Of a stretch of 64,000 bases of DNA, positions 4,883 through 30,338 are shown one piece after another. A program made the position numbers and the translations under genes. Within the stretch, counting starts at the first letter, position 1. Every line of letters begins with the position of its first letter. The DNA is from Cyclobacteriaceae bacterium (GTDB taxonomy: Bacteria; Bacteroidota; Bacteroidia; Cytophagales; Cyclobacteriaceae): NCBI GenBank assembly GCA_016787755.1, contig JAEUUA010000023.1, forward strand, positions 1 through 64,000, in the 5' to 3' direction. Below the pieces are notes generated by a model. That model was given only the letters and a program-made list of their open reading frames with translations. It ran no database searches and was not told the origin of the DNA.

Positions 4883-6268
4883 GTGACTCTTATTAAATCT
4901 ATTTCAGGCATCCGTGGCACCATTGGAGGAACTCCCGGAGAAGCGCTTACTCCTGTTGATACTGTAAAATTTGCTGCTGCGTTCGGTACGTGGATCAAGT
5001 CCCGAAAGGGTAAAAAAGTAGTGATAGGCAGAGATGCGCGCCCTTCCGGGGAAATGGTGAGTCAGTTAGTTGCTGCTACGCTTCAAGGACTTGGGTTAGA
5101 TGTAATTGATTTGGGGCTATCTACAACGCCTACTGTTGAGATTGCGGTTACCGCAGAAAAAGCGGGCGGTGGCATCATACTAACAGCCAGTCATAATCCC
5201 GTGCAATGGAATGCGTTGAAATTATTAAATGAAAAAGGTGAATTCATTTCCGGAGCAGATGGTGCGGAAGTTTTAATAATTGCCGAAGCTGAACAATTTG
5301 ATTTTGCCCCGGTTGAAAAAATAGGTTCTTATACAGTAAATAATTCCTATATAGAAAAACACATCAAACAAATTTTGAAATACAAATTGGTTGATGTGAA
5401 AGCTATTCGAAAAGCTAAATTCAAAATAGCCGTTGATGCCGTTAATTCTACAGGCGGCATTGCTGTACCTCAACTTTTGAAAGCATTGGGAGTTAAAAAA
5501 GTTGTAGAATTATACTGCATACCCAATGGAAAATTTCCACACAACCCTGAACCTTTGCCCGAACATCTTACCGTGATCAGCAAAGCGGTAAAAAAAGAAA
5601 AATGCGATTTGGGAATTGTTGTTGACCCTGACGTGGATCGGCTTGCTCTAATTCAAGAAGATGGAAAACCTTTTGGGGAAGAATATACGCTAGTGGCTGT
5701 TGCCGATTATATCTTAAGCAAACGCAAAGGCAATACGGTTTCAAATCTTTCCAGCACCCGTGCGTTGCGTGATGTAACTGAAAAAGCAAAAGGTAAATAC
5801 AATGCTGCCGCTGTAGGGGAAGTTAACGTGGTGACCAAGATGAAGGAAACCAAGGCAGTTATTGGTGGCGAAGGCAATGGAGGCATCGTTGTTCCTGATT
5901 TTCATTATGGCCGAGATGCACTGATTGGCATAGCTTTGTTCTTGACTCATTTGGCAAAATCAAAACTCAAAGTTTCAGAATTACGCAAAAAATATCCGGC
6001 TTATTTTATCTCTAAAAATAAAATTGAGTTAACACCCAAAATCAATGCAGATGAGGTGTTAGAGAAAGTAAAAGTTCTTTATGTTTCCGAAAAGATCAAT
6101 ACCATCGATGGGGTGAAAATTGATTTTGAAACAGAAAAGGAATGGGTTCATTTGCGCAAGAGTAATACCGAACCCATCATTCGCATTTATGCTGAATCAC
6201 AAAATGAGGCAAAGGCCAATCAATTAGCGCAGCGAATCATTCAAGATATTAAAAAAATTATAGCGTAA
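4883..6268 (+). CDS. glmM: Phosphoglucosamine mutase / phosphohexomutase
   Basis: 461 residues with all four phosphohexomutase landmarks: phosphoserine loop TASHNP near residue 103, metal-binding DPDVDRLA near 250, sugar-binding GEGNGG near 330, and the C-terminal phosphate loop RKSNTEP. The family interconverts hexose 6- and 1-phosphates. The TASHNP/GEGNGG pattern and genome context suit GlmM, which makes glucosamine 1-phosphate for peptidoglycan and LPS, although phosphomannomutase activity cannot be excluded by eye. It starts at GTG 4883 and is followed 11 bp later by a cysteine desulfurase gene, so probably an operon. Confidence 0.87.
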   Translation: MTLIKSISGIRGTIGGTPGEALTPVDTVKFAAAFGTWIKSRKGKKVVIGRDARPSGEMVSQLVAATLQGLGLDVIDLGLSTTPTVEIAVTAEKAGGGIILTASHNPVQWNALKLLNEKGEFISGADGAEVLIIAEAEQFDFAPVEKIGSYTVNNSYIEKHIKQILKYKLVDVKAIRKAKFKIAVDAVNSTGGIAVPQLLKALGVKKVVELYCIPNGKFPHNPEPLPEHLTVISKAVKKEKCDLGIVVDPDVDRLALIQEDGKPFGEEYTLVAVADYILSKRKGNTVSNLSSTRALRDVTEKAKGKYNAAAVGEVNVVTKMKETKAVIGGEGNGGIVVPDFHYGRDALIGIALFLTHLAKSKLKVSELRKKYPAYFISKNKIELTPKINADEVLEKVKVLYVSEKINTIDGVKIDFETEKEWVHLRKSNTEPIIRIYAESQNEAKANQLAQRIIQDIKKIIA

Positions 6269-6279
6269 TTTTACCTATC

Positions 6280-7419
6280 ATGAAGATCTACCTCGACAAT
6301 GCCGCCACAACACCTCTTGACCCCGAAGTGTTTGAAGCTATGAAGCCATTCTTGTTAGAAGATTTCGGAAACCCCTCATCCACTCATTCGCACGGACGAA
6401 AAGTACGTGCTGCTATTGAATCGTCCCGAAAAAAAATTGCTGAACTTTTGAATTGCACCCCTGGCGAAATCATTTTCACCTCCGGAGGTACCGAAGCTGA
6501 TAATGCAATCATTCGTTGTGCTGTTGAAATGTATTCGATTAAACATGCTATCTCTACACCCATCGAACACCATGCAGTAACACATACCTTGGAAACGCTG
6601 GAAAAGCAGGGAGTTATTAAAGTCCATCATGTTAATTTAGACGAAAATGGCAATGTTGACTTAGCTCATGTAGAAGCATTGCTTGTTGAATTTCCAAATG
6701 CATTAGTATCACTCATGCATGCTAATAATGAGATTGGCAACCTGCTCGATTTAGAAGCTGTAGGAAATCTATGTGATAAATATAAAGCCTACTTTCATTC
6801 AGACACTGTTCAAACGGTGGGTCACTTCCGTCACGATATGAAGAGACTAAAGGTTCATGGCATGACTGCTGCAGCTCATAAGTTTCATGGACCTAAGGGA
6901 GTTGGCTTTATGTACATTAATAAGGATAAGAAGATTCATTCTTTCGTGCATGGTGGGGCGCAGGAGCGCAACATGCGGGGCGGCACCGAAAATGTTCCGG
7001 GTATTATTGGTCTCACCAAAGCCTTGGAAATTTGTTATCGCGAAATGGAGGAGCATGAGCAATACATCAAAAAAATAAAAACACTCATGATTCAGAAATT
7101 GACAGAAGCGGTTCCAGGTATATCTTTTAACGGTGATTCAGCAAGCCTGGAAAAAAGTTTATATACTGTGCTAAATGTAAGTTTACCAGAGTCGGAAGAA
7201 AACGAAATGCTGCTTTTTAACTTAGATATGCAGGGCATTTCTGCTTCCGGGGGAAGTGCCTGCTCCAGTGGAGCCTCTACTGGATCACATGTGTTGGGGG
7301 CTATTTACCCAAATTCAAAGCGGGGCGCCATTCGATTCTCTTTTAGCAAATACAACAAACCAGAAGAAATTGAGTTTGTTGCTACTAAAGTAGCCGAGTT
7401 ATATAAAGTTACTGCATAG
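6280..7419 (+). CDS. Cysteine desulfurase (NifS/IscS type)
   Basis: 379 residues, a class V PLP enzyme. The start MKIYLDNAATTPLDP, the EHHAV motif, the PLP lysine in AAHKFHGPKG (Lys201) and the catalytic cysteine in GGSACSSGAS (Cys328) are all present. The Ser/Gly-rich loop around the Cys resembles NifS/IscS rather than SufS. It moves sulfur from L-cysteine to Fe-S cluster assembly or tRNA thiolation. No scaffold gene (iscU, nifU) is beside it; the neighbour upstream is glmM, 11 bp away. Confidence 0.92.
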   Translation: MKIYLDNAATTPLDPEVFEAMKPFLLEDFGNPSSTHSHGRKVRAAIESSRKKIAELLNCTPGEIIFTSGGTEADNAIIRCAVEMYSIKHAISTPIEHHAVTHTLETLEKQGVIKVHHVNLDENGNVDLAHVEALLVEFPNALVSLMHANNEIGNLLDLEAVGNLCDKYKAYFHSDTVQTVGHFRHDMKRLKVHGMTAAAHKFHGPKGVGFMYINKDKKIHSFVHGGAQERNMRGGTENVPGIIGLTKALEICYREMEEHEQYIKKIKTLMIQKLTEAVPGISFNGDSASLEKSLYTVLNVSLPESEENEMLLFNLDMQGISASGGSACSSGASTGSHVLGAIYPNSKRGAIRFSFSKYNKPEEIEFVATKVAELYKVTA

Positions 7420-7466
7420 AAGTAGCCGGTTTGGAATTCGGTAGTATTACTCAAACACGTAAATGA

Positions 7467-8258
7467 ATGGCCAATTCTTTTTCTGTCTCTATCATCGGTT
7501 CGGGCAATCTCGCCTGGCATTTGGCTCCAGCGCTTGACAATGCAGGATTTGCAGTTAAAGAAGTTTATAGCCACAATCCACAACATGCTGAAAAGCTTAC
7601 TGAACGTCTCTATCAAGCGGAAGTAAAAGCCACGTTAGATTTTTCAACAAGCGATTCTCTTGTATTTATACTAGCCGTTAGTGACGATGCAATTAGGCAG
7701 GTGGCACAGGAAATCATTTTACCAGAGGATGCTATTCTTATACACACATCCGGAAGCCTACCCATTACAGAATTAGACTATGCCGCAACCACTCACTTGG
7801 GTGTATTATACCCCCTTCAAACTTTTAGTAAATCCAGCAAAGTAGATTTCAAAAAAATTCCCTTGTTTATCGAAACCCACACCGAAGAAGCAGAAAGAAT
7901 TGTTATGCAAATTGCGAAAGGCATTGGCAAGGAAGTGATTAAAATAGGATCCGAAGAGCGAAAAGCTTTGCACGTTGCTGCTGTTTTTGCTTCCAACTTC
8001 ACAAACCACATGCTTACTATTTCAAAAGAAATCATGAAGCAAAACAGTCTTGATTTCGATTTGTTAAAACCGCTGATCACGGAAACCATCAATAAGAGTT
8101 TTCATTTGGGTCCAGAAAATTCACAAACGGGCCCGGCAAAACGAGGTGATTTGGATATATTAGATGCTCATTTGGATTATTTACAAGAACAGGAGTCTAT
8201 CGCAGAAATCTATAAGGTTATCAGTCAACACATTGTTGATACTCATTATCAGGGATAA
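7467..8258 (+). CDS. DUF2520 Rossmann-fold oxidoreductase-like protein
   Basis: 263 residues. It starts with VSIIGSGNLAWHLAPALDNAG, a dinucleotide-binding GxGxxxW/G loop, followed by the Rossmann domain and an all-helical C-terminal DUF2520 domain (AVFASNFTNHML, GPAKRGDLDILDAHL). The architecture resembles 6-phosphogluconate or pyrroline-5-carboxylate reductase-like NAD(P) enzymes, but no substrate is established for this family. In Bacteroidota it is a conserved single gene. ATG 7467 is chosen over the out-of-frame ATG at 7463. Confidence 0.85.
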   Translation: MANSFSVSIIGSGNLAWHLAPALDNAGFAVKEVYSHNPQHAEKLTERLYQAEVKATLDFSTSDSLVFILAVSDDAIRQVAQEIILPEDAILIHTSGSLPITELDYAATTHLGVLYPLQTFSKSSKVDFKKIPLFIETHTEEAERIVMQIAKGIGKEVIKIGSEERKALHVAAVFASNFTNHMLTISKEIMKQNSLDFDLLKPLITETINKSFHLGPENSQTGPAKRGDLDILDAHLDYLQEQESIAEIYKVISQHIVDTHYQG

Positions 8259-8330
8259 TTTTATTTTTAACTAATTTAGTTTCAAAAATTTCGTGCCCTG
8301 AAAGTATTATTAATCTATAAAGTCAATGCT

Positions 8331-9074
8331 ATGCGTTTAATCTATTTTTTCTTCTTCATGTTAATTACTGTTGGTTCATTTGCACAGGCGAAACCAAGAG
8401 AATCTCTTGACCCAACTGTTTCTGAAATCTGGGATCTTAAGCCCGTAAAGGTCACTCCTGCAAAAAATGTAGGTGATGCACCTTCCGATGCAATTATAAT
8501 TTTCGATGGCAAAAATTTAAATGAATGGACATCGCTGGATGGCACGCCCGCCAGGTGGGAAGTAAAGGAGGGTATATTCACGGTTGCCAAAGGGACCGGT
8601 GATATTAAAACCAAAAAAACATTTGGTGATATCCAATTGCACATTGAATGGCGCGCACCCACAGAAATTGTTGGTGAAGGACAAGGCCGCGGTAACAGCG
8701 GGATTTTTTTACAAGAGCGCTATGAATTACAGGTACTGGATAGTTATGAAAGTGTTACGTATTCAAACGGTCAGGCCGGATCGATTTACAAGCAATCCAT
8801 TCCGCTAGTGAATGCAACGCGCAAGCCTGGTGAGTGGCAAACATATGATGTAATTTATACCGCGCCTCGCTTCAGTGAAAATGGTCGGGTCGTTTCCCAG
8901 GCCAAAATTACGGTTATTCACAATGGAGTGCTCATTCAAAATGATACCCAAATCTGGGGGCCCACAGAATACAAGGGATTGCCTGTATATCAGTCACATG
9001 GTAAAGCTTCCCTCAAACTTCAGGATCATGGCAACCCGGTAAGTTTTAGAAATATTTGGATCAGAGAATTATAG
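8331..9074 (+). CDS. Secreted DUF1080 (3-keto-disaccharide hydrolase-like) protein
   Basis: 247 residues with a clear signal peptide (MRLIYFFFFMLITVGSFAQA). The mature part contains IIFDGKNLNEWTS, RGNSGIFLQERYELQVLDSY and a C-terminal SFRNIWIREL, all hallmarks of DUF1080, a concanavalin-like beta-sandwich. Characterised members hydrolyse 3-keto-glycosides. The protein is presumably periplasmic or surface-exposed. It is followed by a bidirectional terminator shared with a convergent gene. Confidence 0.88.
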   Translation: MRLIYFFFFMLITVGSFAQAKPRESLDPTVSEIWDLKPVKVTPAKNVGDAPSDAIIIFDGKNLNEWTSLDGTPARWEVKEGIFTVAKGTGDIKTKKTFGDIQLHIEWRAPTEIVGEGQGRGNSGIFLQERYELQVLDSYESVTYSNGQAGSIYKQSIPLVNATRKPGEWQTYDVIYTAPRFSENGRVVSQAKITVIHNGVLIQNDTQIWGPTEYKGLPVYQSHGKASLKLQDHGNPVSFRNIWIREL

Positions 9075-24596: not shown

Positions 24597-24696
24597 ACAA
24601 ATCAAAAAACTCTAAAAATAGGCTATTGACTCTAAAAAATAATATAGCCTGAACCTGAAACAATATATCTACTTTTCTGTTTGATAGTAATACTAT

Positions 24697-24704
24697 TATA
24701 TTTG
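24697..24704 (+). promoter_or_regulatory. -7 element for the TetR/exporter operon
   Basis: TATATTTG, a perfect TAnnTTTG match, 21 bases before ATG 24726. The open frame extends upstream to TTG 24681, but that start would precede the promoter, so ATG 24726 is used. Confidence 0.6.
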
Positions 24705-24725
24705 CAAGCATTAATACCCTATTTT

Positions 24726-25412
24726 ATGCCAACCCTTACTTTCAGGTTAAATACTCATCTCTTTGTCCGCGATCCCCAACACACCCTACTCGGCCAAAAC
24801 ATTATCCGTTCTAGCGTAGAATTAATAGACCAATTGGGGTTTGAACAGTTTACATTTAAGAAATTAGCCGAAGAGATCAATTCCACTGAAGCCTCCGTTT
24901 ACAGATATTTCGAAAACAAGCATCGCCTGCTTCATTACTTAATAGGCTGGTATTGGAGTTGGTTAGAATATCGCATTGATTTATTCACGATTAACCTTAC
25001 CAGTCCGCGCGAAAAATTAAAAGCCTGCATTAAAGTAATTGCAGAAGAAAAAAAACTTGACGACAACTTCGATTTTATCAACGAAGAGGCTTTGCATCGA
25101 ATTGTTGTTGCCGAACTTGATAAAACCTATTTGACCAAACAAGTAGATAATGACAATAAGGAAGGACTATTTAGTGGATTTAAATCACTATGCAAAAAAA
25201 TTTCGGAATGGGTGATCGGTGTTAACCCAACGTTTCAATTTCCCAATGCATTAGTTAATACCATTTTGCTCACCGCAAAACAACAAATATTTTTTGCCAA
25301 TCATCTACCCTCCCTTACCAGTATTGGTAATGAGGCTAACCGCCATGCACGACTAGAGGAATTCCTGGAAACTCTTTTATTTAAGACCATAGACATTAAC
25401 GAACATGCTTAA
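24726..25412 (+). CDS. TetR/AcrR-family transcriptional regulator
   Basis: 228 residues. The N-terminal helix-turn-helix reads IIRSSVELIDQLGFEQFTFKKLAEEI..TEASVYRYFENKHRLLHYL, classic TetR. The C-terminal ligand domain is not assignable. It overlaps the ABC transporter gene by eight bases and is first in a four-gene exporter operon, so it probably regulates its own operon in answer to the exported compound or a related signal. Confidence 0.9.
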   Translation: MPTLTFRLNTHLFVRDPQHTLLGQNIIRSSVELIDQLGFEQFTFKKLAEEINSTEASVYRYFENKHRLLHYLIGWYWSWLEYRIDLFTINLTSPREKLKACIKVIAEEKKLDDNFDFINEEALHRIVVAELDKTYLTKQVDNDNKEGLFSGFKSLCKKISEWVIGVNPTFQFPNALVNTILLTAKQQIFFANHLPSLTSIGNEANRHARLEEFLETLLFKTIDINEHA

Positions 25413-27570
25413 CAACGATCAAATCGTTCGCTGCCTTCACGAAGTTGCTTTTGCTATTAAGCACGAATATTCTACTGATGACCTGCACCATGTAGAAGCA
25501 AATCAACGAACGTATTCGGACGTTGATTTTCCGGAATTTAAGCGCGACTTGATAGAAGCCGGTAATAAAATGCGGATTCTATTCATGGAATATCATCTTG
25601 ATGATGATGCATTCCTGGAATTTTTACAATCTCAAAAATTGCCGGTATTGGCATTTACACAGGATGGAACTTTAAAGCCTGTTCTGCTTTCGTATGCAAA
25701 GAAAAATATTTCGATAACAAGTATTGATGAAACCACTGATTTCAAATCAGTAGCTTCATCCTTGTCAGAGTTGACTCTGTTAAAAAATAAAAACAACGAA
25801 ATAGAGTTCTTTGCCATATTCGCTTATGAAAGTCCTATAAGCATGGATGCTGGGGAAGGCGAAGAATTAAATCCTGTTAAACGACTCTTAAAGTTACTTC
25901 GCACCGAGAAGAAAGAGATTCTTTACATCTCCTTTTATGCTCTTCTTATTGGATTAATCAGTTTAGTAATTCCTTTAGGTATACAAACCACGGTTGAATT
26001 AATTTCAGGAGGGGTATTTTTCAGTTCGGTCTATTTACTCATAGGCCTGGTTATATTAGGAGTGCTGTTGAGTGGTGGTTTGCAAGTGATTCAAATCACC
26101 TTGGTGGAATTTTTACAACGAAGAATTTTTACAAAGGCCTCCCTTGAGTTCGCTTTTCGCATTCCGCGTATTCGTGCCGAATCCATTCAACAAAATTATG
26201 CTCCGGAATTAATTAACCGTTTCTTCGATGTAATCACCATTCAAAAAGGATTACCTAAATTATTGATCGATCTTTCCTCGGCTGGTATTCAAATTTTATT
26301 CGGGTTACTGCTTATTTCCTTGTATCACCCATTCTTTATTTTCTTTGGCGTGATTCTGGTCACGACCCTAGTCATGATTTTTTATATAACCGGTCCAAGA
26401 GGATTAAGTTCATCCATTGCTGAATCCAAATACAAATATAAAGTTGCACATTGGCTGGAAGAGTTGGGAAGAGCGTTGCATTCTTTCAAGCTTGCCGGCA
26501 GCACTGACCTACCCATTCGTAAAACTGATTATAACTTAAATAACTACTTAAAAAATCGTAAAGTTCACTTTCGCGTCTTAGTAACCCAGTTCTCATTCAT
26601 CATTTTATTTAAAGCCCTCATAACTGGGGGCTTACTCATCATGGGAACTTTGCTTGTGGTTGACAGGCAAATCACCCTGGGGCAGTTTGTTGCCTCCGAA
26701 ATTGTGATCATTCTTATCTTAAACGCAGTGGAAAAAATAATCATGTATATGGATGTGGTCTATGATTTACTCACGGCCGTTGATAAAGTAGCCCATGTTA
26801 CTGATCTGCCAATTGAAAAGGTAGGCGGTCTGGATTTTCCATCATCGAGTAAGAAAGGTTTTGAAGTTAGAACCAAAAATCTAACCTATACCTATACTGC
26901 TTCAGGGTATAAAGCTCTAAGCGGGATTGATCTCGAAATAAAGGCCGGTGAAATGGTGTGTATTACCGGGCCTGGCAACTCTGGCAAAACCACCCTCATG
27001 AATATTTTAACCGGTTTATATACAAATTTTGAAGGCGTTGTTACAATCAATAATTATTCCTTACGGGATTTGGATTTAACCCACATGCGTGATCAGGTGG
27101 CAAAAAATATTTCGCAAGAGGATTTATTTGATGGCACGTTGTTGGAAAACATTACGCTTGGCAAAACCACCACAACAGCACACGATGCCCTGGAGGCCTT
27201 AAACGAGGTAGGGTTGCGCGATACAGTATTTTCCTGGCCCAAAGGACTGGAAACGCTGATACTTAGTGGTGGAAAAGGCCTTACAAAAACTATGATTCAT
27301 AAAATTATTTTGGCTCGGTGCCTTGCTAAAAAACCAAAATTACTAGTGCTAAATGATTTCTTTAACCCCTTGGGTAAAATGGACAAAATGGAACTGTTGG
27401 CTGCTATTGCAAAAATACAAGCACACTGCACCATTATTATTGTTTCAAAAGATCCTTCTATCATGAGTGCCTGTGATCGTGTGATTGTGATGGACGATGG
27501 AGTCATTCGCACACAGGGAACTATGCAAGAGTTAGTATCAAAAGAATTAATAAAAGATTTAATCAATTAA
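25405..27570 (+). CDS. ABC exporter (HlyB-like architecture) with degenerate ATPase domain
   Basis: 721 residues: an N-terminal domain of about 155 residues without a catalytic Cys, possibly a dead C39-like domain as in HlyB; a six-helix membrane domain (about 170-455); and a nucleotide-binding domain (about 485-721). Walker A is intact (GPGNSGKT, 522-529), and Gln571 fits the Q loop. Aligned without gaps to ordinary exporters, the signature LSGGQ is replaced by LTKTM (626-630), the Walker B Asp is Asn650, the catalytic Glu is Asp651 and the H-loop His is Lys682. It probably binds ATP but hydrolyses it poorly or not at all alone. It lies between TetR and HlyD genes. Confidence 0.88.
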   Translation: MLNNDQIVRCLHEVAFAIKHEYSTDDLHHVEANQRTYSDVDFPEFKRDLIEAGNKMRILFMEYHLDDDAFLEFLQSQKLPVLAFTQDGTLKPVLLSYAKKNISITSIDETTDFKSVASSLSELTLLKNKNNEIEFFAIFAYESPISMDAGEGEELNPVKRLLKLLRTEKKEILYISFYALLIGLISLVIPLGIQTTVELISGGVFFSSVYLLIGLVILGVLLSGGLQVIQITLVEFLQRRIFTKASLEFAFRIPRIRAESIQQNYAPELINRFFDVITIQKGLPKLLIDLSSAGIQILFGLLLISLYHPFFIFFGVILVTTLVMIFYITGPRGLSSSIAESKYKYKVAHWLEELGRALHSFKLAGSTDLPIRKTDYNLNNYLKNRKVHFRVLVTQFSFIILFKALITGGLLIMGTLLVVDRQITLGQFVASEIVIILILNAVEKIIMYMDVVYDLLTAVDKVAHVTDLPIEKVGGLDFPSSSKKGFEVRTKNLTYTYTASGYKALSGIDLEIKAGEMVCITGPGNSGKTTLMNILTGLYTNFEGVVTINNYSLRDLDLTHMRDQVAKNISQEDLFDGTLLENITLGKTTTTAHDALEALNEVGLRDTVFSWPKGLETLILSGGKGLTKTMIHKIILARCLAKKPKLLVLNDFFNPLGKMDKMELLAAIAKIQAHCTIIIVSKDPSIMSACDRVIVMDDGVIRTQGTMQELVSKELIKDLIN

Positions 27571-27573
27571 ATC

Positions 27574-28863
27574 ATGTTAAAAAATTCTTCCCATTCTGTA
27601 GAAAAAATGATGTCGCAAGACCGGCTCTACTCACTCCGCTCTTTAAACACCCCAATGGCTGGTAAAATACTGGCGGGTTGGCTCATGGGTATTGGCATTA
27701 TATTTCTAATCGTTTTGTTTTTACCATGGCAACAAAACATCCGTGGCAACGGGAAAGTTACTGCACTATCTCCCGGTAATAGACCGCAAACTGTTGAAAC
27801 AATTATTGCCGGGCGAATTCAAAATTGGAAAATCAATGAGGGGCAGTTTGTAAAAAAAGGAGACACAATTGCTGTCATTAGTGAGGTAAAAGAAAAATAT
27901 TTCGACCCCATGTTTTTAGTTCGCTTGCGCGAAGTGATTAGCTCAAAGCAAAATAGTTTAAAGTCAAAGGATCTGAAAGCTCAGGCGTTGAGGCGTCAGA
28001 TATCAGCGCTTGAAGATGGTATGCGCACTAAAGTAAATCAGGCTAAAGCAAAGTTAGAGGCAGAACGCATTCGTTTTGCCAACGCAAAAAATCAGTTTGA
28101 ACGGAACAAAAGGCTTTTTGAAGCGGGCAACATTCCACTCACTAAGTATCAGGATTTCGATTACAAATATCAGGGTGCCGAAGCTGATTTTGTGAATGCC
28201 GAAATAGAAATAGAGCGTGTTCAGGCAGAGTATTTAGACAAAATTAACAAAGCCGAATCGGACCTTAACAACACGCTCTCCGATCAATTTGAAACAGTAG
28301 CTGATTTAGCCAAACTAGGGAATGAACTTGTAAATATGGAAATCCGCAGTCAACAGTATTTTATTCTGGCCCCTCAAAGTGGCTATGTGGTAAAGGCAAC
28401 GCAGGCTGGTATTGGTGAAACCATAAAAGAAGGTGAGCCAATTTGCACCATCATGCCAGCATCGGATGATGTGGCCGTGGAGATGCACATAAAGGCTATG
28501 GATGTTCCACTAATAAGTATTGGAAGAAAGGTACGGATTGAGTTTGATGGATTTCCAGCCTTACAATTTAGCGGTTGGCCAAGTGTTTCAGTGGGTTCGT
28601 TTGGCGGAATTGTAAAGGTAATTGACTATGTAAATTCTAAACCTGGTGAATTTAGGGTATTGGTTATACCCGATCGCAACGATCAGCCCTGGCCCAAGCA
28701 GATACGCAACGGTTCTGGTACTCATGGTTGGGTGATGTTAGATGACGTTCCTGTGTGGTATGAAATCTGGCGACAGCTAAACGGGTTCCCTCCAAGCTTG
28801 TATGAAGAGCCAATGGATAGTAAAGGCGATGGAAAAAATAACAAGACCGAAGCTAAACTCTAG
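27574..28863 (+). CDS. HlyD-family periplasmic adaptor protein
   Basis: 429 residues. A short cytoplasmic N-terminus, one membrane helix (about 31-52), a biotinyl-lipoyl-like half (IIAGRIQNWKINEGQFVKKGDTIAVI), a long coiled coil (about 110-235) and the returning half-motif (ILAPQSGYVVKATQAGIGETIKEGEPI) define a membrane-fusion protein. It would bridge the ABC transporter encoded 3 bp upstream to the TolC-like channel encoded 5 bp downstream. Confidence 0.92.
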   Translation: MLKNSSHSVEKMMSQDRLYSLRSLNTPMAGKILAGWLMGIGIIFLIVLFLPWQQNIRGNGKVTALSPGNRPQTVETIIAGRIQNWKINEGQFVKKGDTIAVISEVKEKYFDPMFLVRLREVISSKQNSLKSKDLKAQALRRQISALEDGMRTKVNQAKAKLEAERIRFANAKNQFERNKRLFEAGNIPLTKYQDFDYKYQGAEADFVNAEIEIERVQAEYLDKINKAESDLNNTLSDQFETVADLAKLGNELVNMEIRSQQYFILAPQSGYVVKATQAGIGETIKEGEPICTIMPASDDVAVEMHIKAMDVPLISIGRKVRIEFDGFPALQFSGWPSVSVGSFGGIVKVIDYVNSKPGEFRVLVIPDRNDQPWPKQIRNGSGTHGWVMLDDVPVWYEIWRQLNGFPPSLYEEPMDSKGDGKNNKTEAKL

Positions 28864-28868
28864 GCAAA

Positions 28869-30338
28869 ATGAGAATCCTAAAAAAAATAGCCAGTGCACT
28901 TGTACTTATTTTTCAATCCCAACTCTGCGTTTCGCAGGGAGCTTTAGATACACTTTTTGTATTGCCCGATAGTGTAACTGCCTTTAGCATAGAAAATCTA
29001 TATGCCTCTATGTTAGAATATCATCCTGTTGTAAAGCAAACCAGGTTGCTTAGTGAAATGGCCAAACAAGAGGTGCGTTTGGCACGAGGTGCATTTGATC
29101 CTAAACTGGAAAGTCGGCTAAACCTAAAAGAATTTGACAACAAAGAATATTATAACAAGTGGATAGCATCGTTTACTGTTCCGATTTGGTTCCCAATTGA
29201 TCCTAAAATCGGAATTGAAAGAAATTCGGGGGTGTATTTGGATGATGAAAATTCCTTTCCTGCAGGGGATAACAACAAACAATTATTTACAGGCATATCG
29301 CTGCCTTTAGGCCGGGGCTTGTTTACTGACGAACGAAGAGCAGCGGTACAACAAGCTAATCTGTTTACCCAGCTGGCCCAGGCAGAACAAATAAAATTAA
29401 TCAATAAAATTTTGCTGGAAGCCGCCAAAGATTATTGGCAATGGTATTACGCATATTACAACTATCGACTAATGAATCTGAATACAGCAATTGCCCAGGA
29501 AATTTTTAACCGGGTTAAATTGAATGCTGAATTTGGTGAAGCCTCGGCAATGGATACGATACAGGCTAAAATAACCTACCAACAGCGATTGGTTGAACAG
29601 CAAGAAGCCTACTTAGAGTTTGTAAATACGGGATTAAAAATTTCTACTTATCTGTGGGATGAATCCTTAAATCCCTTGCAACTATCCGGTAATGTTGCAC
29701 CGGTATTAGTCCAGACTGACGGTGAACTGCTTGCCCTTACAACGCTTGAGGAACTTACTCAACAAGCAAGGGAAAATCATCCTGAGTTAACAAAACTGAG
29801 TGTTAAACTAAATCAATTGGAAGTAGATCGAAAACTTGCGACCGAATATTTAAAACCTAAGCTTGATTTGAGTTATAACTTTCTTAACCAACCTATTCAG
29901 CCTTCCGGTGAATTTCAATCCTTTACCTTTTTAAATGATTATAAATTCGGGCTTGATTTTGCTATGCCAATTTTGATCAGAAAGGAACGATCGAAGTTAG
30001 CTCAAACAAAAATTAAAATCCGGGAAACAGAATATGCTAGAACACAATCAGAACGGGAAATAATAAATCAGGTAAATATGATTCATAATCAATTGGTGAA
30101 TACCAACGGCATCTTGATTCAACAAAACAGTGTAGCTCTGAACTACCAGCGATTACTAAATGCCGAACTCATCAATCTTGAAAATGGAGAGAGCGATTTG
30201 TTTAAAATTAATGTGCAACAGGAAAAACTTATTCAGTCACAATCCAAGCTATTAAAACTGAAAGCTGAGTATGAAAAAATGAAGGCAACTATTTATTGGG
30301 CTGCCGGAGTCCGCAATTTGAATTTCACTATAAACTAA
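28869..30338 (+). CDS. TolC-family outer-membrane channel
   Basis: 489 residues with a signal peptide ending near CVSQG. Two OEP repeats are visible, each with long helices (MLEYHPVVKQTRLL..., ELTQQARENHPELTKLSVKLNQLE) and strand segments such as SRLNLKEFDNKEYYNK. It completes a tripartite envelope-spanning exporter with the ABC and HlyD genes. It ends 4 bp into the convergent amine-oxidase gene, with no terminator between them. Confidence 0.9.
   Translation: MRILKKIASALVLIFQSQLCVSQGALDTLFVLPDSVTAFSIENLYASMLEYHPVVKQTRLLSEMAKQEVRLARGAFDPKLESRLNLKEFDNKEYYNKWIASFTVPIWFPIDPKIGIERNSGVYLDDENSFPAGDNNKQLFTGISLPLGRGLFTDERRAAVQQANLFTQLAQAEQIKLINKILLEAAKDYWQWYYAYYNYRLMNLNTAIAQEIFNRVKLNAEFGEASAMDTIQAKITYQQRLVEQQEAYLEFVNTGLKISTYLWDESLNPLQLSGNVAPVLVQTDGELLALTTLEELTQQARENHPELTKLSVKLNQLEVDRKLATEYLKPKLDLSYNFLNQPIQPSGEFQSFTFLNDYKFGLDFAMPILIRKERSKLAQTKIKIRETEYARTQSEREIINQVNMIHNQLVNTNGILIQQNSVALNYQRLLNAELINLENGESDLFKINVQQEKLIQSQSKLLKLKAEYEKMKATIYWAAGVRNLNFTIN

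Follow-up and report, generated by a model that had tools for sequence, protein, structure and literature searches.

TolC-dependent tripartite exporters are normally classified by their engine, which is either an ABC transporter (driven by ATP) or a transporter of the RND or MFS type (driven by protons). The window analyzed here, that is, the whole 64,000-nucleotide stretch of a Cyclobacteriaceae contig (JAEUUA010000023.1), raises the question of what drives such an exporter when the catalytic motifs of its ABC protein are missing. A run of four genes, all on the forward strand, encodes a TetR-family regulator, an ABC-like exporter, an HlyD-family adaptor and a TolC-family outer-membrane protein (Table 1). 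An inner-membrane exporter, HlyD and TolC, the gene set of type I secretion, are thus present within one operon. The membrane domain of the exporter, which matches PF00664, is followed by a degenerate nucleotide-binding domain (NBD).

Table 1. Features of the exporter locus in the window (residue numbers refer to the exporter protein)
Feature	Position	Strand	Basis or remark
TetR-family regulator gene	24681..25412	+	PF00440, E 1.1e-08; 8-base overlap with exporter start
ABC-exporter-like gene, 721 aa, catalytically degenerate NBD	25405..27570	+	intact ORF
N-terminal domain, residues 1-150	25405..25854	+	fold resembles C39 peptidase-like domain of HlyB/PCAT1
Transmembrane domain, residues 157-471	25873..26817	+	best conserved part of the protein
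Intracellular loop 2/coupling helix 2, residues 354-372	26464..26520	+	conserved in NBD-bearing members, relaxed in NBD-less members
E432 codon, TM6	26698..26700	+	acidic family-wide, never in 27 canonical exporters
D454 codon, lower part of TM6	26764..26766	+	acidic throughout the family
Degenerate nucleotide-binding domain, residues 481-714	26845..27546	+	PF00005 over 505-650
Walker A GPGNSGKT (522-529), retained	26968..26991	+	K528 is the Walker A Lys; GPGNSGKTT with the next residue
Signature position, LTKTM (626-630) in place of LSGGQ	27280..27294	+	alignment with canonical exporters
Walker B strand LLVLND (646-651)	27340..27357	+	N650, D651 in place of D, E
K682 at the H-loop His position	27448..27450	+	alignment with canonical exporters
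HlyD-family periplasmic adaptor	27574..28863	+	PF13437, E 4.5e-12
TolC-family outer-membrane protein	28869..30338	+	PF02321, E 5.8e-32

Alignment with canonical exporters bore out nearly all the motif assignments of the initial annotation (LTKTM for LSGGQ, N650, D651, K682 and an intact Walker A), and the Pfam matches agree with its description of a full-length gene whose HlyD and TolC partners lie in the same tight operon. In the same columns, five other exporters of the window genome and two outside ones have intact or near-intact motifs. The exception is the Q-loop: Gln571, previously taken to be intact, can be matched to the canonical Gln only by introducing a one-residue deletion, and just 19 of the 75 family members compared have Gln there.

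By fold and operon, the window protein is of ABC/type I secretion descent, but it fails the ATPase motifs and the curated cut-offs, with scores of 185.6, 129.4 and 143.3 bits for TIGR03375, TIGR01846 and TIGR01842, all far below the respective thresholds of 693.1, 725.55 and 510.15. Its AlphaFold2 model (mean pLDDT 89.2) matches PCAT1 and HlyB over the full length, the C39-like N-terminal domain included. The type I secretion and PCAT exporters (HlyB, LssB of TIGR03375, NHLM ABC, PCAT1 and ComA) share this full-length fold and the HlyD/TolC operon and are its best NCBIfam relatives, whereas loss of the catalytic motifs, a clade without the NBD and a TetR regulator set the family of the window protein apart from them; nor was a protein substrate apparent nearby. 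The C39-like domain is the fastest-evolving part of the protein (12-67% identity among relatives) and is absent in many of these, including relatives of about 570 aa and the NBD-less ones.

Homologs were collected from 59 related genomes, from a named genome collection that contributed 80 loci, and from genomes of the phylum (395), the order (390) and one further family (251); in the wide set, orthology was assigned by membrane-domain scores. The family is represented in 318 of the 390 genomes of the order, and its named hosts include Cyclobacteriaceae, Chryseolinea, Pontibacter, Algoriphagus and Salegentibacter, along with Riemerella plasmids; outside Bacteroidota, one Gemmatimonadetes MAG in the named collection carries a member. 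Among the 154 family NBDs that were aligned, from Bacteroidota and a few other phyla, none contains a signature of the LSGGQ type (SGG). The Walker B position is D in 22 of the 154 and the catalytic position is E in seven, with both present in only two, and the H-loop His is kept in three. Counting these four features together, 125 NBDs have none, 25 have one, four have two, and not a single NBD has three or more. In contrast, the Walker A Lys is kept in 150 of the 154. As judged from the alignment, the loss of motifs is therefore common to the family, far beyond chance, rather than peculiar to the window gene.

In the more distant relatives from Sphingomonads (Novosphingobium and Sphingobium), Walker A is lost as well. 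One such gene with a destroyed Walker A, on a Sphingobium baderi plasmid (L175:1-9111), adjoins genes for an S8 peptidase, an AAA ATPase and a His-Xaa-Ser radical SAM maturase (HxsC), a neighborhood hinting at export of a modified peptide. Two members of the family that are otherwise conserved carry interruptions, one in-frame TGA in L020 (genome G016) and an apparent frame break in L117 (Siphonobacter), which represent recent decay or sequencing errors.

HlyD is encoded downstream of the exporter in 69 of the 73 named loci with sufficient room, and TolC in 64 of 68; a TetR regulator lies nearby in 38 of the 80 named loci. Four of the 73 loci have no detectable adjacent HlyD. The exporter is separable from the adaptor operon, as shown by four NBD-bearing members (L072 from Thermoflexibacter ruber, 5746-9048, as well as L078, L079 and L068) with no detectable HlyD or TolC gene next to them.

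Both domains are under strong constraint. In unsaturated pairs of NBD-bearing members, dN/dS is 0.026-0.065 for the NBD; for the membrane domain, it is 0.007-0.055 in NBD-bearing pairs and 0.007-0.074 over the NBD-bearing and NBD-less groups together. Compared to the window protein, the membrane domain is more similar than the NBD in all 74 members, by 19.6 percentage points on average. In the control set of canonical exporters, with motifs intact in 30 of 30, the same difference is only +0.9 (29 orthologs from the same relative genomes), and at larger distances, the NBD becomes the better conserved part. Given the strong purifying selection and the losses common to homologs, the gene is not decaying, in line with the earlier view of the locus; codon comparisons indicate that it is under purifying selection. 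A pseudogene and an error of sequencing or assembly are ruled out for practical purposes, given the same losses in 154 homologs from independent assemblies, the full-length frame of the window gene and the strong purifying selection.

The near-universal retention of the Walker A Lys and the low dN/dS of the NBD imply that this domain does something, possibly in a nucleotide-dependent manner. One version of such a function is slow hydrolysis by an unorthodox ATPase in which, for example, D651 would serve as the Walker B Asp. The second Walker B position is D in 114 of the 154 NBDs, and many of these have E-D or N-D instead of the canonical D-E, as if the acidic pair were swapped or shifted in many NBD-bearing relatives. 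Nevertheless, we consider hydrolysis of this kind improbable: none of the 154 NBDs has the signature that completes the ATP sandwich, the catalytic Glu and the H-loop His are almost always jointly absent, and in one clade, the NBD is dispensable altogether. A slow, rearranged ATPase is possible at most in the NBD-bearing members. In these, the retained P-loop suggests that nucleotide is bound for regulation or structure. Thus, the earlier suggestion that ATP is bound but not turned over may hold for members with an NBD, but not as a general source of energy.

The clade in question was found by searching with the membrane domain alone. In 43 of the fetched loci, a membrane-domain frame of about 335-400 codons ends without an NBD, and in each of the 43, HlyD and then TolC follow directly downstream, often overlapping; TetR is nearby in 16. 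Similarly short frames (at most 402 aa) account for 58 of the 114 matches in one family (f22), a few of them near contig ends. The NBD-less loci come from four families of two orders and form one clade with a support of 100, nested among the NBD-bearing proteins, in a quick tree in which the branch order inside the clade is uncertain. The only outlier in the tree, L219 (genome G937), has a frame that runs up to the contig end (base 4020 of 4022 in the locus) and was not counted. NBD-bearing and NBD-less copies coexist within single genera, a distribution that requires horizontal transfer or differential loss of copies. Multiple independent losses of the NBD, considered for the same reason, are at odds with the single clade in the tree. 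One genome (G990) carries two NBD-less copies less than 25 kb apart on contig 3 (L212 at 406317-407309 and L211 at 428915-429904), each with its own HlyD and TolC.

These loci bear on whether the missing catalytic functions are supplied by another protein. In TAP, TM287/288, CFTR and Pdr5, one ATP site is degenerate at the Walker B Glu, the H-loop and the signature. The same elements are degenerate in the window protein, but those transporters keep one full consensus site per dimer, whereas the window family has no linked partner gene. It had been proposed that the window protein, which as a homodimer would have no consensus ATP site (a point that our alignments support), may dimerize with an active half-transporter encoded elsewhere. 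Heterodimers in which one site is degenerate occur commonly among exporters (PMC7756269), and the window genome encodes five other exporters with intact or near-intact motifs, none of them in the operon. However, the exporter gene stands alone with HlyD and TolC: there is no second half-transporter in the operon region, the named loci or the NBD-less loci. Furthermore, with both the Walker B/Glu/His set and the signature lost, the motif positions imply that pairing with a canonical partner would restore neither composite site in full. Finally, the operon persists in an entire clade that has no NBD at all. Borrowing of a free NBD in trans fares no better. No relocated family NBD was found in six NBD-less genomes, where the best match, at 182 bits, falls within canonical exporters of about 600 aa; two NBD-keeping genomes searched as a control scored 232 and 209 bits. 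In addition, intracellular loop 2 with coupling helix 2, which is required for contact with an NBD, is more variable in the NBD-less clade (entropy +0.31). It is the only such segment, all other parts of the membrane domain being less variable in this clade than in the more diverse NBD-bearing set. This relaxation is the pattern expected if the NBD-less proteins contact no NBD, in cis or in trans, and where an NBD is present, conservation of the same loop points to continued docking of this domain. Accordingly, supply of an NBD by a heterodimer partner or in trans appears quite unlikely.

The membrane domain itself appears complete. The model of the NBD-less protein L166 (mean pLDDT 88.1) matches HlyB residues 128-458 over 324 residues (Z 26.6, rmsd 2.9); in the models, the type IV exporter membrane-domain fold is kept, including in this NBD-less member. 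Within this domain, the TM6 position of E432, which lies seven residues into the helix, holds Glu in 200 of 201 members and Asp in the remaining one, with all 43 NBD-less proteins included, and also holds Glu in both Sphingomonad relatives. Of 27 canonical exporters, taken from four genomes of the group and two outside records, not one is acidic at this column. D454, farther down TM6, is acidic in 201 of 201 members. E432 is the one invariant acidic residue inside TM6, the other acidic residues being located at the cytosolic ends. Its conservation makes E432 a candidate coupling residue, although it could instead bind substrate or serve the structure.

The family-wide loss of motifs and the dispensability of the NBD in one clade, combined with the kept fold and operon, suggest that ATP hydrolysis is not needed, and we regard transport without the use of ATP hydrolysis as well supported and probable. 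If ATP hydrolysis is indeed not used, coupling to protons is the likely alternative by analogy to known proteins. LmrA and MsbA from which the NBD has been deleted transport using an ion or pH gradient (PMC2704374, PMC4979069, PMC6155054), and proton coupling by LmrA depends on E314 in TM6 (PMC2704374). A natural proton-driven example is SbmA, which has been proposed to use a glutamate ladder and to descend from an ABC transporter through loss of the NBDs and coupling helices (PMC13316013). Taken together, we assign a probability of roughly 55% to the reading that the locus encodes a TetR-regulated HlyD-TolC exporter of HlyB/PCAT-like ABC descent that works without ATP hydrolysis and is probably proton-coupled. 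Under this scenario, the homodimeric membrane domain would still perform alternating access, the cycle would be driven by protonation of membrane carboxylates, with E432 in TM6 as the prime candidate, and proton-coupled secondary export would pass through HlyD and TolC. In NBD-bearing members, the NBD would be a non-hydrolyzing nucleotide-binding or structural module that still docks on the membrane domain, perhaps gating or tuning it. The TetR repressor weakly hints at a small-molecule substrate.

Several considerations weigh against proton coupling, the basis of which is conservation and precedent. The LmrA and MsbA membrane domains resemble the NBD-less clade in lacking an NBD and, in LmrA, in an acidic TM6 residue, but they are engineered laboratory truncations, unlike the natural NBD-less proteins of the family, and the wild types require ATP to be fully active. 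The two glutamates may also differ in position: E432 appears to be closer to the periplasmic end of TM6 than E314 of LmrA, for which the spacing to Walker A, taken by itself, indicates a location near lower TM6, not at E432. A single conserved intramembrane carboxylate is also less than the ladder of six glutamates in SbmA. The main rival is a gate or scaffold without energy coupling, in which the ABC-fold membrane domain would serve HlyD-TolC as a gate, anchor or sensor at the inner membrane, with substrate flowing down its own gradient or being loaded from the periplasm. Such an arrangement would explain NBD loss with an intact operon, needs no energy source and, with downhill flux, would leave traces similar to those of proton coupling. 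We nonetheless consider it unlikely, because polar residues in the membrane domain are very strongly constrained and the exporter fold is fully kept, which together suggest that a transport cycle persists.

Proton-coupled export by the family would parallel SbmA/BacA (SLiPT), proton-driven peptide importers that have a type IV ABC membrane domain without an NBD, as in the NBD-less clade, conserved membrane glutamate(s) and an expected homodimeric state (PMC13316013). There are differences as well. The window protein keeps a degenerate NBD, the absence of which is limited to the NBD-less clade; relaxation of intracellular loop 2 is likewise confined to this clade. The lineage of the family is HlyB/PCAT-like, not YddA-like, with the elbow helix kept and no extra TM0 helices. 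The family also has an HlyD and TolC exporter operon and surviving NBD-bearing degenerate relatives. SbmA is not among the best 50 structural matches of the L166 model, an absence that carries no weight, and the SbmA/BacA Pfam family has no match in the NBD-less proteins L166 and L171, in which only PF00664 scores above the cut-off (E up to 0.1). The best explanation is that the family resembles SbmA in its mode of working without belonging to the SbmA family, as an independent parallel on the export side. Searches of open-access literature text turned up no account of this family, nor of a type I secretion system without an ATPase or an exporter with a degenerate NBD in Bacteroidetes.

More broadly, and with odds that we place just short of even, the family could represent a widespread natural class of TolC-linked systems with an ABC-fold, proton-coupled secondary transporter as the engine, which arose independently of SbmA and of which the evolutionary stages are still alive: a degenerate NBD with the P-loop, loss of the P-loop (in Sphingomonads) and loss of the NBD. 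If true, an ABC-fold family without a working ATPase would break the engine-based classification of TolC exporters, and a second, independent NBD loss besides that in SbmA would imply that the ABC membrane domain readily turns into a secondary transporter. With the surviving intermediates, the disputed coupling of ABC membrane domains to ion gradients can be put to a direct test in natural proteins. In hundreds of genomes, these genes are likely annotated as ATP-driven transporters, which they probably are not.
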